Origin: a bacterium | GTDB lineage: Bacteria > Pseudomonadota > Gammaproteobacteria > Pseudomonadales > Moraxellaceae | Direction of reading: 5' to 3' | Length of the DNA: 64,000 nt | Assembly (NCBI GenBank): GCA_029945725.1 | Contig: JAQSDB010000008.1 | Coordinates: 124,001 to 188,000 of the forward strand | In this document: piece after piece, positions 46,674 to 53,669 of the stretch | Layout of the letters: every line of letters begins with the position of its first letter | How positions within the stretch are numbered: the stretch's first letter is position 1 | The notes under the pieces: generated by a model | Told to the model about the DNA's origin: nothing | What the model saw: the letters and a program-made list of their open reading frames with translations, nothing else | Databases searched by the model: none | Made by a program: the position numbers and the translations under genes

Positions 46674-47294
46674 GTGAGAAAAATGATGTCATTCAGGCAG
46701 ACTGAAAACCGGGCCATGCGGCGCGCGCCGCGCATCGCCGCCTTTGTGCTTGGCTGCCTGCTGCTCTCCGCCTGCGGCTTTCATTTGCGCGGCAACTATC
46801 ATCCGCCGGCCTTCCTGCACGAGGTGACCTTGCGCACGCCGGCCAACAGTCGCGACCTGAACACGGAGCTGCAACTGGCGCTGGCACGCAACAATATCGT
46901 TCCGGAAGGCGGCGAAGTGCTGCTGGAAGTGGTGCGGGAAAACCTGACACGACAGACATCAACGGTCGACAGCAGCGCCAAGGCGGCCGAATACACCCTG
47001 ACCTATACCGTTGATTTCCGCGTCAGCGACACGCAAGGCCTGGCCACCGGCATCACCCAGTCGCTGATACTGCGGCGCAGCTACCAGTACAGCACCACGA
47101 ATATTGTCGGTAAAAGCACGGAAGAAGACACCCTGGTGCATGAACTGCGCATTGATGCGGCGCAGCAGATCGTGCGTCAGCTCGCCGCCATGAAGGAGCC
47201 ACCCCGGCCGGCTCCTGCGGCAAACCAGAGCGCCATGCCGGTACCGGCTCCCGCCGCCACCCCGGCCGCTGAAAAAGCCGCCACCACGCCATGA
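46674..47294 (+). CDS. lptE: LPS-assembly lipoprotein LptE
   Basis: Lipobox LLLSACGFHLRG; between leuS and holA; exact start uncertain. Confidence 0.93.
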   Translation: MRKMMSFRQTENRAMRRAPRIAAFVLGCLLLSACGFHLRGNYHPPAFLHEVTLRTPANSRDLNTELQLALARNNIVPEGGEVLLEVVRENLTRQTSTVDSSAKAAEYTLTYTVDFRVSDTQGLATGITQSLILRRSYQYSTTNIVGKSTEEDTLVHELRIDAAQQIVRQLAAMKEPPRPAPAANQSAMPVPAPAATPAAEKAATTP

Positions 47295-48316
47295 AATTGC
47301 GCGCGGACCAGTTGCCACGCCATGTCAGCGAGCCGCTGCGCCCGCTCTATGTGGTCTTTGGCGATGAAATCCTGCTGCAGCAGGAAGCCGCCGACACACT
47401 GCGCAAGGCCGCACGTGCGCAAGGCTACAGCGAACGCGAACTGCACCATGCCGAACGCGGCTCCGACTGGAACGAACTGCTGGCCAGCGCCAACAACCTG
47501 TCGCTGTTCGGCGACAAAAAAATCCTGGAAATCCGTTTCAGCGGCAAACCGGATACAACGGCCGCGGCCACTCTGGAACGCTACGCCAGCGATCCGTCCC
47601 CCGACACCCTGCTGCTGTTGCTGTTGCCCAAGCTCGACGGCACGGCGCAAAAAGCAAAATGGTTTGTCGCCTGTGAAAATGCCGGCGCCTCCGTAGCCGT
47701 GCCGCAAATCGATGCCCACTCCCTGCCCGACTGGCTGCGCAATCGCCTGCAGCAGGCAGGCCTGCGTGGCGATGCCGAGGCATTTTCACTGCTGCTGGAA
47801 CGCGTGGAAGGCAATTTGCTGGCGGCGCAGCAGGAAGTCGAAAAACTGCGCCTGCTCGCCACCGATGGCCTGCTCACCGCCGAGCTTGTGCGTCATGCGG
47901 TCGGTGACAGCTCGCGCTACAACGTTTACGACCTCGCCGATTGCGCGCTCGCCGGCGATGCCGTGAAGGCAGCGCGCATGCTCGCCGGCCTGCGCGCCGA
48001 AGGACAGGCCGACTCCGTGGTGATGTGGGCGCTGGCAAAAGATGCCCGCGCGCTCGCCGCCTTGCGTGAAGGCCTTGATGCCGGCCAGCCCCTGAATGCC
48101 CTGCTGCAGCAAAACGGCATCTGGCAAAAGCGCCAGCCCCTGTTCCAGCGTGCCCTGCAACGCACCGGTACGGCACTGGCGCGCACACTGGTACAGGAAT
48201 CGCTGGCGCTGGATCAGGCCATCAAGGGACAAAGCCCTGAACGTGCCGGTGATGTCTTGTTGCGCCTGACCATGGCCATCGCCGGGCATCCCCTGTTTAT
48301 TCCTGCTGCCGGATAA
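47291..48316 (+). CDS. holA: DNA polymerase III subunit delta
   Basis: MKLRADQLPRHVSEPLRPLYVVFGDEILLQQEAADTLR; ATGA overlap with lptE. Confidence 0.96.
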   Translation: MKLRADQLPRHVSEPLRPLYVVFGDEILLQQEAADTLRKAARAQGYSERELHHAERGSDWNELLASANNLSLFGDKKILEIRFSGKPDTTAAATLERYASDPSPDTLLLLLLPKLDGTAQKAKWFVACENAGASVAVPQIDAHSLPDWLRNRLQQAGLRGDAEAFSLLLERVEGNLLAAQQEVEKLRLLATDGLLTAELVRHAVGDSSRYNVYDLADCALAGDAVKAARMLAGLRAEGQADSVVMWALAKDARALAALREGLDAGQPLNALLQQNGIWQKRQPLFQRALQRTGTALARTLVQESLALDQAIKGQSPERAGDVLLRLTMAIAGHPLFIPAAG

Positions 48317-48390
48317 TTTTCACCGCCGCCACAATCCTCTCCGCTCTGTCGCCATCCTGGCAGGCAGGCTGCAACAACCCGTGATCACTT

Positions 48391-48648
48391 ATGCGCAATG
48401 ACCAGCAGACTCCTGAACAGCTCGCGCTGCGTCGCCAGATTCGCCGTGACGTGATTATCGACACCCTGGGCAACACCGCACTCGCGCTCGGCCTCTGGGG
48501 CTGGCTGGGTGAGCCCGGCTACTGGAACCAGTTACTGAAAGAACCGGCCCTGTTTATCTGCCTGACGGCCAGCGGCATTCTCAATCTCGTGCACATGCCC
48601 AAACGCCTGATCCGTCTGCGGCAATGGCAGAAGCTCAAAAACAAATAA
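48391..48648 (+). CDS. Small membrane protein
   Basis: 85 aa with two hydrophobic segments; own ATG; downstream of holA. Confidence 0.55.
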   Translation: MRNDQQTPEQLALRRQIRRDVIIDTLGNTALALGLWGWLGEPGYWNQLLKEPALFICLTASGILNLVHMPKRLIRLRQWQKLKNK

Positions 48649-48811
48649 GCCACAGCGACAAACCGGTCGGGCGGCCTGCACCGGCAAATTTTTTCAGCAC
48701 GGACATTGCCGTGGCGGGGACGCGAATAACACCATCCCCTTTTCCGTATTTTTTTATTGGCCCGTAAATGAAACCTGCAGACCCTCGCGGGCCGCACAAC
48801 AAAACGGCCGC

Positions 48812-49450
48812 CTAGCTGCCGGCCATCAGGTCATTCCATTTCTGCATCAGGTCCGTGAGCATCCGGATCTGGCGATCCAGGCTTTGCAGCTCCTCAACCG
48901 TGTTTTTTTCACCCGTGAAGGTCTCCACCTGCTGCAGTATCTGCCAAAGCGGATTATCCGGTATCTGCATGCGGTAGACGCCCAGCTTCCAGCGCGTGTT
49001 GTGCGTCACCATGCGCCACAGGATCAGCTTGGTAGAAAGCTTGATCTTGCTGAAGTCGGTCAGCGCGCCAAAGGGAGTGAAGTCGGTACCAAACAACTGG
49101 GCACGGGAAGATTTCGGATCGGCCACAAGGGTCGCCGTACGCGGGGCGTCACACAACAGTGCCAGCACCCCGACTGCCTGGCCGGCCGACAGGTAATTCA
49201 GCGCCCGGCGCGATTTTTTTCCATCCGGATACACCACCAGCTGCCCGGTCAGCAGAAAGTAAAAAATCTTGTCGCGCGCGCCCTTCTCGATCACGACCTC
49301 TCCGGGAGCCGGCTCGTACACACTGGAGTGACGCAACAGGATGGCCATCTGTTCCGGATCACTGAATGACAGGTCCTTGTAGAAGGGAATGCCGGACAGC
49401 AGGACATCCAGGGTATCGGCCGGGTAAGTGCCAAGGGCAATGCATTTCAT
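48812..49450 (-). CDS. Cyclic-nucleotide-binding (cNMP) domain protein
   Basis: LLRHSSVYEPAPGEVVIEKGARDKIFYFLLTGQLVVY ... LSAGQAVGVLALLCDAPRTATLVA; no HTH evident. Confidence 0.83.
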   Translation of the reverse strand: MKCIALGTYPADTLDVLLSGIPFYKDLSFSDPEQMAILLRHSSVYEPAPGEVVIEKGARDKIFYFLLTGQLVVYPDGKKSRRALNYLSAGQAVGVLALLCDAPRTATLVADPKSSRAQLFGTDFTPFGALTDFSKIKLSTKLILWRMVTHNTRWKLGVYRMQIPDNPLWQILQQVETFTGEKNTVEELQSLDRQIRMLTDLMQKWNDLMAGS

Positions 49451-49667
49451 GAAAGAACCTCCGTGGTCGCCGAGTATAGGCATGACATGCTGCCGCATAC
49501 AAAGCAGCCGCCATGCCACTGCCGGTGTGCCGCAGGCACGGCTGTAACCGTCTCCGTCTGCCGTGAAGGGATCGGGCCGGCGACCAGTGCCCCTTCCCTG
49601 CCGCCAGCGCTTGCCGCATCATCGCCGCGCCCGCCCCGGGCCCATGACTGAGCCAAAGGAAACCCGC

Positions 49668-49832
49668 ATGAAAAGACGGCATCGCAGCGCCAAGGCGCTG
49701 GTCTTTGATCCCCTGTTTCGCTCCCGCCAGGAAAAAGCGAAAAAAGGCAAAGGCAGTTATAAGCGCAGGCCCCGCAATCCCCGCCAGGATTCGGGGCCTT
49801 CTCTTTTTCCGGCGCGGGCAACGGTTGCCTGA
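49668..49832 (+). CDS. arfA: Ribosome-rescue factor ArfA-like (54 aa)
   Basis: MKRRHRSAKALVFDPLFRSRQEKAKKGKGSYKRRPRN matches the ArfA core DPLFRxRxEKxKKGKGSYxRK; AAAGGA RBS. Confidence 0.85.
   Translation: MKRRHRSAKALVFDPLFRSRQEKAKKGKGSYKRRPRNPRQDSGPSLFPARATVA
49767..49807 (+). terminator. Intrinsic terminator/hairpin inside the arfA ORF
   Basis: AGGCCCCG(c)AATCC-CCGCC-AGGATTCGGGGCCT followed by TCTCTTTTT. Confidence 0.82.
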
Positions 49833-49877
49833 AAAGATCGACACCGGCATTATCGGCGCACGCTTTTGGATGCCCCC

Positions 49878-50750
49878 ATGAAAAACAACAATGACAGCTC
49901 CAGCATTTCCTTTACCGCGCATTACACCGGTTTTATCTGGCACCACTACGGTCTCTCCGAAGCCGCTTTCGCCACCACGCAGGGTCGCCTTTATTTTTCC
50001 CTGCTGCTGCCTTTCGAATGTCTGGCTCGACGGATAGTGGGCAGCGACATCAAGACCACCCTGCTGCAGCGTCATGCCCTGATTGATCGCGAACTCGAGA
50101 CAATGATTGCCCGCCACCCGGACCTGCAGGTACTGGAAATTGCCTGCGGCCTTTCACCTCGCGGGCATCGCTTCTCGCGCAAACACCCCGGCATCACCTA
50201 TGTGGAAGCGGATCTGCCGGGCATGGTGGCGCGCAAAAAACCCTTGCTCGAATCACTGCAGTCACTGAACCGCCGGCACCGGCTTGTCACCTGCAACATT
50301 CTCGACACGGGCAGTGCGGACAGCCTGGAAAACGTGATCGCGCGTGAATTCCGGCACGACAAGGCGCTCGTGGTCATCAGTGAAGGGCTGGTGAATTATT
50401 TTGAACTGCCGCTGATCAGTTCCGTATGGCAACGCCTGGCCACGACCCTGAAAACCTTTGTGCAGGGCAGCTATCTCACGGATGTTTATCCCGAGGTCGA
50501 GGGCCATCGCTTCTCCGGCATCATCCGTGCCGCCAATCGCAGCCTGCGCATCGCCTCACGCAGCGCTTTCTGCCTGCATTTTGGCAGCGATGACAGCATG
50601 CAGCAGCATTTTGAAAGCATGGGCTTTGCCCGTGTCCGTGTCTTCAATCCCGACCATGAGCCGGCGCTGGTACAGGCGCGCGGTGGCGCGCTGGTTCGCG
50701 TCATCAACGCGAACGCCGGCGAGCCGTCGCAAGAAACGCTGCCGGCATGA
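49878..50750 (+). CDS. Leucine-carboxyl-methyltransferase family SAM methyltransferase
   Basis: LLQRHALIDRELE, VLEIACGLSPRGHRF, YVEADLPGMVARK, VVISEGLVNYFE. Confidence 0.8.
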   Translation: MKNNNDSSSISFTAHYTGFIWHHYGLSEAAFATTQGRLYFSLLLPFECLARRIVGSDIKTTLLQRHALIDRELETMIARHPDLQVLEIACGLSPRGHRFSRKHPGITYVEADLPGMVARKKPLLESLQSLNRRHRLVTCNILDTGSADSLENVIAREFRHDKALVVISEGLVNYFELPLISSVWQRLATTLKTFVQGSYLTDVYPEVEGHRFSGIIRAANRSLRIASRSAFCLHFGSDDSMQQHFESMGFARVRVFNPDHEPALVQARGGALVRVINANAGEPSQETLPA

Positions 50751-50760
50751 CTGAAGCCAT

Positions 50761-50789
50761 AAAAAAACCCGCCTCAGGCGGGTTTTTTT
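50761..50789. terminator. Bidirectional intrinsic terminator
   Basis: AAAAAAACCCGCC-TCA-GGCGGGTTTTTTT between convergent genes. Confidence 0.93.
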
Positions 50790-50807
50790 ATGGCAGCGAG
50801 GCATCGC

Positions 50808-52112
50808 TCAGCGATAGATGGTCCAGAGCTTCTGCTCCCCGCTGTCGGCTTTAAGCGCAGCGGGACGGCGGAAAAAAAGCTCGTCATCCAGCAGCATCCT
50901 CAGCTCGTCGGCGACATCAAAACTGCCGTGCTTGAACAGGCAGCGCATGGTGCCGTCCTGCTGCTCGAACACCAGCATTTCAATACGCAGCGCCGTGCCT
51001 TCCGGACAGAGGATCAGGTCGCGCGCATGTTTTTCCAGTGGCGAGTCCGTGTGCTCGTATTCCAGCACGCAGCCAAAGAAATTCATGTCGCGGATTTTCA
51101 CTTTCATGTCGATGGAAAGCGCACCATCCACATGCGAGAAACTGATGATGCGGGCGTGCGGATTCACCGGCACCAGACGTGCCTCGCCACGGCGCTCCAT
51201 GGCTTCGCACTGCTGTTTGTCCAGTACCTCGATGCCCTTCAGGGCATGCAGGTCATCGCCGCGCAAAAAGGCCGCAAACATGGCCACGGACTCGTCACGC
51301 TTTTCCAGCTGCGCCACATGATCCGCACCCTTGATCAAGGCAAAGGTGGCGTTGGCACAGCGCGAGGCAAACAGGGCATTTTCAAACGGCAGCGTGAAGC
51401 TGTCGTACTCGCCGGTAGACACAAGGGTTTCACAGCCGGGGTAGCCGAGAATGGATTCCACTTCGAGCAGGCGGGCGACATTGATGCGGTAACGCTGCTG
51501 CTCATTGGCATGAAAGCTGCGCATCTGGCGATGAAAGAGGCGACGCGTGATGTCGGTGATTTCCGTTTCTTTCAGGCGCGCGTGATTAACAAGATACAGC
51601 ACCACCGCCTGACCGAACTCGTCAAGGCGGCCTTCATCCAGCACCTTCAGCGATTCTTCCAGCAGCATGCGCCAGGATTTGCGCGGGCGAATGACAATGC
51701 CGGTGACGATCAGTTTATGCGTGTGCTCCGGGCGCTTGTAGGCAAAGGTCGAAGCCACCACCGAACCCAGCGACAGTCCCATCAGGGAAACCTGCGGCAG
51801 GCCGGCACGCTGCGTCCACTGGAACAGCAGATCCGCCAGATCCTCCATGCCGAGCTCGGGCGCCAGCTGGTCGTTGTTCCCCAGCGACGGCAGGTCAATC
51901 AGGATGACGGGCACATCCAGCAGGATCTGCTCGACGCAGTATTTGTAGGAATTGAAATTCTGGAAGGCCCCGCCGAGCACAATCAGCGGCACCTTGTGCG
52001 CGTTCTCCGGCGTACTGAAAGCCAGATATTCCACGCGCCACTTGCCCACCAGATCCGTCCGGGGAGGCTGCTTGAGCGAAGAGCGGTTATAGACCTCATA
52101 CGAGATGGTCAT
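50808..52112 (-). CDS. Alpha/beta hydrolase with C-terminal PilZ-like region
   Basis: [42 protein letters not shown]-terminal ~140 aa beta-rich with RRGEARLVP...[13 protein letters not shown]. Confidence 0.75.
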
Positions 52113-52403
52113 GATTCCCCCTTTAGGGTGGATGGGTGGCTACAGCCACTTCTTGTTGTTGATCGCATTATTGCCCATGAGCGCATCGATGGCGCGGTGC
52201 CCTGCGGACGCGGCAGGCACTTTTCTGCTGGGAGGTCGATCGTACCACCGGTGTTTGCGACTGCCCACCCGACACCACTCGTCCTTAATCACCATCGGCG
52301 ACTGCAATCGACAACCGGTCGCCATCCTGCCAGCTTCGGGGAAGTAGGGCACCGGCACAGGCAGCAGGTATACTGCCCGCCTGATTCCTGCAGGACTTTG
52401 ACC

Positions 52404-53669
52404 GTGAACCGCCCGCTTGATGTTTCCGCCTACATGCAAACGCTGGGACGCAGTGCCCGCGAAGCCTCCCGTGCCACCGCCCGCGCCAGCACGAAGGAAA
52501 AGAACGCCGCCCTGTCGGCTATTTACGACACCCTCGCCGCCGCCAAATCCGATGTGCTGGCCGCCAATGCGAAGGATGTAGACGCCGGCCGTGCCAGTGG
52601 CCTGGATGCCGCCATGCTGGATCGCCTGACCATCAGCGAAAAAGGCTTTGCCGGCATGCTTGAAGGCCTGCGCCAGGTGATTGACCTGGCCGATCCCATC
52701 GGCGCCATCACCGACATGGTCTATCGCCCGAGCGGCATCCAGGTCGGCAAGATGCGCGTCCCGCTGGGCGTCATCGGCATCATCTACGAATCCCGTCCCA
52801 ATGTGACGCTGGAAGCGGCCTCGCTCTGCCTCAAGTCCGGCAACGCAACGATATTGCGTGGCGGCTCTGAAGCCATTCACTCCAACCGCGCCATCGCCGT
52901 CTGCATCCAGCAGGGTCTGGAACAGGCCGGCCTGCCACGCAACGCCGTACAGGTCGTGGAAACCACGGACCGGGCGGCGGTCGGCCAGCTCATCACCATG
53001 CCCGAGTTTGTCGATGTCATCGTGCCGCGCGGCGGCAAGAGCCTGATCGAACGTGTCTCCCGCGAAGCCCGGGTGCCGGTGATCAAGCATCTTGATGGCA
53101 ACTGCCATGTCTGGATTGACGACGAAGCCGATCTCGCCAAGGCCGTCCCGATTGCCCTCAACGCCAAGACGCATCGTTATGGCGTCTGCAATGCCATGGA
53201 AACCCTGCTGGTGCACAGCGCGGTTGCCGCCCGTGTGCTGCCGGAACTGGCCCGCCTTTACGCCGAAAAAGGCGTGGAGCTGCGCGGCTGCGAACGCACC
53301 CGCGCCATCATCGAGGCCAAAGTGGCGACCGAGGAAGACTGGTACGAAGAGTATCTGGCGCCGGTACTGGCCATCAGGGTCCTCGATGATCTGGACCAGG
53401 CCATCGCCCATATCAACCAGTACGGCTCGCACCACACCGACGCCATCATTACCGAGAACTACACAAAATCGCGCCGCTTCCTCAATGAAGTGGACTCGAG
53501 CTCGGTCATGGTGAATGCCTCCACGCGCTTTGCCGACGGCTTTGAATACGGCCTCGGTGCCGAGATCGGCATTTCCACCGACAAGATCCACGCCCGTGGT
53601 CCGGTCGGCCTGGAAGGCCTCACCTCGCAGAAGTGGGTCGTGCTCGGAGACGGCCAGATCCGTGGGTGA
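52404..53669 (+). CDS. proA: Gamma-glutamyl phosphate reductase
   Basis: GTG start 52404; [39 protein letters not shown]; 421 aa. Confidence 0.96.

Follow-up and report, generated by a model that had tools for sequence, protein, structure and literature searches.

An arfA Ribosome-Rescue Gene With a Hairpin Inside its Own Coding Region in an Undescribed Genus of Moraxellaceae

The DNA analysed here, hereafter the window, comprises 64,000 nucleotides from a member of the Moraxellaceae (GCA_029945725.1, contig JAQSDB010000008.1, positions 124,001 to 188,000, forward strand). It carries a genuine arfA, a gene that serves as a backup in the rescue of stalled ribosomes, with a hairpin inside the coding region; the message very probably ends before the stop codon is reached, and the protein then accumulates only if the principal rescue pathway has failed. 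We hold with high confidence that this is a functional arfA with an intragenic 3' end, a non-stop mRNA and control by trans-translation, where termination, tagging, degradation and rescue activity are presumed from work on Escherichia coli and Bacillus subtilis.

Identity and Distribution of the Gene

A preliminary description of the window had proposed a 54-aa open reading frame with an ArfA core, and this proposal is borne out by the core itself and by matches to both profile and structural entries (Table 1). The search with the Pfam profile for ArfA (PF03889), set beforehand as a possible refutation, returned the reading frame at E 3.8e-13, with 49.1 bits against a curated cut-off of 25.5. 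Six ArfA sequences from the PDB match the encoded product (MKRRHRSAKALVFDPLFRSRQEKAKKGKGSYKRRPRNPRQDSGPSLFPARATVA, with the C-terminal end ...PSLFPARATVA) over approximately residues 6-38 (E 4e-7 to 2e-6). The protein contains KKGKGSYKRR, a core of the KGKGSY type, with which ArfA binds in the empty mRNA channel; this core is invariant in the ArfA alignment and aligned with the PDB chains. We take the ATG of Table 1 as the start, rather than a GTG or ATG further upstream, because a Shine-Dalgarno-like element is suitably placed before it; the other genus members likewise show GGAGA, AGGA or a similar motif 5' of their arfA start. Three further searches returned nothing: no NCBIfam model matched the reading frame, no Rfam family matched positions 47000-52500, and a scan for the sigma-70 consensus near arfA found no promoter.

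Table 1. Features of the arfA locus in window coordinates.
Feature	Position	Strand	Description
Shine-Dalgarno-like AAAGGA	49655..49660	+	7 nt upstream of the ATG
arfA ORF	49668..49832	+	54 codons / 54 aa; ATG 49668, TGA 49830-49832
ArfA core DPLFRSRQEKAKKGKGSYKRR	49707..49769	+	from sequence; alignment with Pfam and PDB ArfA
Intragenic hairpin	49767..49799	+	13 bp, one bulge, 6-nt loop; -22.5 kcal/mol; inside the ORF, 5' of the TGA
U tract TCTCTTTTT	49800..49808	+	7 T of 9, two C interruptions (TCTC before TTTTT); directly 3' of the hairpin
Coding tail, codons 48-54 and stop	49809..49832	+	predicted in read-through transcripts only; ends -ATVA

The genome (3.34 Mb in 11 contigs, 99% complete) contains no other ArfA match. 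Within the genus, arfA was detectable in seven of nine genomes, the two without a match being 59% and 86% complete; none was found in the 190 genomes sampled outside the genus but within Moraxellaceae. The carriers of arfA thus now include an undescribed genus of this family. Vertical descent is suggested by the position of the gene, because holA lies about 1.35 kb before arfA in the window and many Pseudomonas loci have arfA directly after holA. Most simply, then, arfA would have come down from an ancestor, with losses in the rest of the family; given the same vicinity to holA here and in Pseudomonas, horizontal transfer is a less likely explanation for the patchy distribution. The divergent upstream neighbour in the window encodes a protein with a cyclic-nucleotide-binding domain (PF00027; 48812-49450, reverse strand), which lies near arfA in only some members of the genus.

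A Hairpin Beyond Chance

The preliminary description had further placed a hairpin and a T tract within the arfA coding region, and both are indeed found there, before the TGA. The 5' arm is formed by AGGCCCCG (49767-49774), a bulged C at 49775 and AATCC (49776-49780); the loop CCGCCA follows, and the 3' arm consists of GGATT (49787-49791) and CGGGGCCT (49792-49799). The last 26 arfA codons were replaced by synonymous codons drawn at window usage, and only 4 of 3000 such recodings folded as well as the native hairpin. A scan of both strands of the window for folds no longer than 40 nt with a T-rich 9-mer directly after them gave its most stable segment at this site, a slightly longer stretch of 36 nt at -23.1 kcal/mol.

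As a measure of termination we used a score of the d'Aubenton-Carafa type, in our own implementation, in place of an automatic longest-stem search, which often fused the hairpin with downstream sequence. The arfA site scores weakly positive (D 4.8), a value that none of 1500 synonymous recodings equalled; none even exceeded zero. A shuffle test on a 101-nt stretch that included unrelated flanks was unimpressive (z -1.45), and a search with a generic palindrome pattern, uninformative as such, gave no match. The hairpin is beyond chance.

Conservation Within the Genus

A hairpin is present at the equivalent codons in all seven genus copies of arfA, and its outer stem is kept in every one: four share AGGCCCCG/CGGGGCCT, and the other three have (A/C)AGCCCCG/CGGGG(C/T)TT. 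One pair has changed from G-C to A-U in a compensatory manner; this covariation is real but slight, as it concerns a single pair among seven related sequences.

In pairwise codon comparisons across the genus, 49 of 378 pairs (13%) are non-synonymous in the part that precedes the hairpin region. The share is 31% between GKGSY and the end of the hairpin, a segment with well-kept bases, and reaches 116 of 153 (76%) just after the hairpin. Because amino-acid constraint is lost exactly after the hairpin, the gene does not appear to be normally read to its stop codon.

An alternative is that arfA encodes an ordinary stop-terminated small protein, in which the hairpin is a transcript terminator that merely overlaps the gene end and the full-length 54-aa ArfA is what works. 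The stop codon is intact in the window copy, and a stop shortly past the hairpin is retained in many relatives as well; moreover, Pseudomonas-like copies and those of other Pseudomonadales have conserved -AA ends, so that the tail is sometimes translated. Against this, tails within the genus diverge freely in both length and sequence, one copy (L023) has no stop up to the end of its contig, and full-length ArfA of E. coli is unstable (PMC10107115). We consider the ordinary small protein very unlikely.

The next gene downstream, which encodes an LCM-type methyltransferase (PF04072; 49866-50750, forward strand), starts approximately 35-50 bp past the arfA stop and adjoins arfA across the genus, in a conserved arrangement. 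Its expression may require transcripts that pass the arfA hairpin.

Termination or RNase III Cleavage

The preliminary description had assigned this copy to the version in which a terminator ends the transcript, a claim that fits the window copy; it is not exclusive, given the modest score and the U tract, which in three of the seven genus copies is too poor for a positive terminator score. Terminator scores are positive in four of the seven (L027 28.5, L023 9.3, the window 4.8 and L025 3.0) and negative in L022, L024 and L026, and these negative values may make it doubtful that termination is the conserved mode in the genus. RNase III processing may accordingly take part. The two mechanisms can also coincide, as one stem-loop of E. 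coli arfA acts both as terminator and as RNase III site (PMC10107115).

In its stronger form, the alternative states that non-stop arfA mRNA derives mainly from RNase III cutting of the hairpin and that the U run is incidental, with the gene and its regulation unchanged. All seven genus copies retain the stem, but several have a weak U tract, and RNase III cuts arfA in E. coli (PMC3989581). Cleavage also finds a parallel in family f37 (L002, L004, L006, L144-L152, L165, L170-L172), where a long hairpin that has no U tract takes in the arfA stop codon, at its loop or close to it, a layout that suggests RNase III rather than termination. However, the window stem is short (13 bp), and the known substrates of RNase III are said to be longer than the similarly short arfA hairpin of Pseudomonas aeruginosa (PMC13159725); in addition, the window copy does have a U tract, and L023 and L027 clearly score as terminators. 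We regard cleavage as the main source of the message as a possibility of the less likely kind, and by our judgement termination is about twice as likely as RNase III for the window copy, which has a U tract and a short stem. The related arfA hairpins, whose U tracts range from strong through weak to absent, form a natural series for the comparison of terminator and RNase III control.

Predicted Non-stop Product and Proposed Regulation

The partners that such a circuit needs are encoded in the same genome: a tmRNA (C3:101965-102320) with the tag ANDENYALAA, and a gene for RF2 (L037) that keeps its programmed +1 frameshift site, CTTTGAC, at about position 890. RF1 and a GGQ protein of the ArfB type are also present.

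By analogy with E. coli and B. subtilis, RNA polymerase would mostly terminate at the hairpin and U tract within the arfA reading frame, possibly helped by RNase III cutting of the stem. The mRNA would then lack a stop codon, and ribosomes would stall at its 3' end. Codon arithmetic from the predicted 3' ends (approximately 49805-49808) gives a non-stop peptide of 46-47 aa, whose last residues correspond to E. coli residues 54-55 (offset 8 in the PDB alignment); in E. coli, ArfA forms 53-55 residues long have full activity (PMC3989591). While trans-translation works, tmRNA would add ANDENYALAA to this product and thereby direct it to degradation. When trans-translation is absent or overloaded, ArfA, truncated yet complete, would be released, bring RF2 to stalled ribosomes and stand in for tmRNA. 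The earlier suggestion that the gene is controlled through its non-stop mRNA by tmRNA is thus supported by the position and conservation of the hairpin, by the coding constraint that is lost beyond it and by the tmRNA of the genome.

Encoded -AA Endings

The C-terminal ends of ArfA reading frames were compared among loci L002-L020, L050-L123 and L144-L172. Among the Pseudomonas-like sequences, -AA is the ending of 63 of 70 distinct genes, written in twelve codon combinations and after tails of varied length, and the same ending occurs in family f37 in 27 of 28 reading frames of a later sample and 5/5 of the first. The ending is rare in the background, with 2 of 260 long ORFs in one genome of the Pseudomonadaceae family, and occurs in none of the 28 ArfA loci from a different order of Gammaproteobacteria (including Enterobacteriaceae-like ones), although Fisher values for these differences overstate the case, as the sequences are related. 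Within the window's genus, four of six reading frames end in -AA; the window copy ends in -ATVA (49821-49832) and another in -AAVV.

Selection on the amino acids of the ending is indicated because the whole tail is replaced and yet the ending is kept. ClpX binds the terminal LAA of the tmRNA tag (PMC13159725, PMC9382460), and the conserved -AA end suggests a ClpXP degron. We lean slightly towards the view that ArfA of Pseudomonadales has an encoded SsrA-like end in -AA, often -LAA, which would convey the same destruction signal whether the mRNA is truncated or read through, with -ATVA of the window as a derived variant. For the instability of full-length ArfA, the papers searched give only a hydrophobic C-terminus (PMC13159725, PMC10107115), and our literature search did not find a second, gene-encoded degradation layer for ArfA described. 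If the view is correct, the encoded degron would constitute such a second layer in Pseudomonadales.

Comparison With Known Systems

Intragenic terminators are already known from arfA of E. coli and brfA of Bacillus, and the window arfA is therefore of a known kind: we read it as the standard non-stop-mRNA type, whose wiring has been established in E. coli and other bacteria. With ArfA of E. coli (YhdL) it shares the protein family, a hairpin in the 3' part of the reading frame, a predicted truncation at the equivalent residue and tmRNA, whereas its N-terminus and stem are shorter and the long hydrophobic C-terminal tail is missing. The E. coli stem-loop serves as an RNase III site and as a rho-independent terminator, and E. 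coli relies mainly on RNase III.

In Neisseria gonorrhoeae, the arfA hairpin is reported to be an intrinsic terminator that yields non-stop mRNA (Schaub et al. 2012); its sequence differs from that of the window hairpin. A far stronger terminator than that of the window was scored at L040 (D 29.8 versus 4.8), a locus that may be Neisseria-like.

BrfA of B. subtilis has a terminator within the coding region, a non-stop mRNA and RF2-dependent rescue (PMC6881298), traits that are proposed for the window arfA as well, but it is a Gram-positive factor that its describers assumed to be unrelated to ArfA, whereas the window protein matches the ArfA profile. With ArfA of P. aeruginosa (PA3990) the window copy shares the GTDB order, a short hairpin and the holA neighbourhood seen in Pseudomonas; the hairpin sequence differs, and Pseudomonas-like reading frames mostly end in -(L/M/F)AA.
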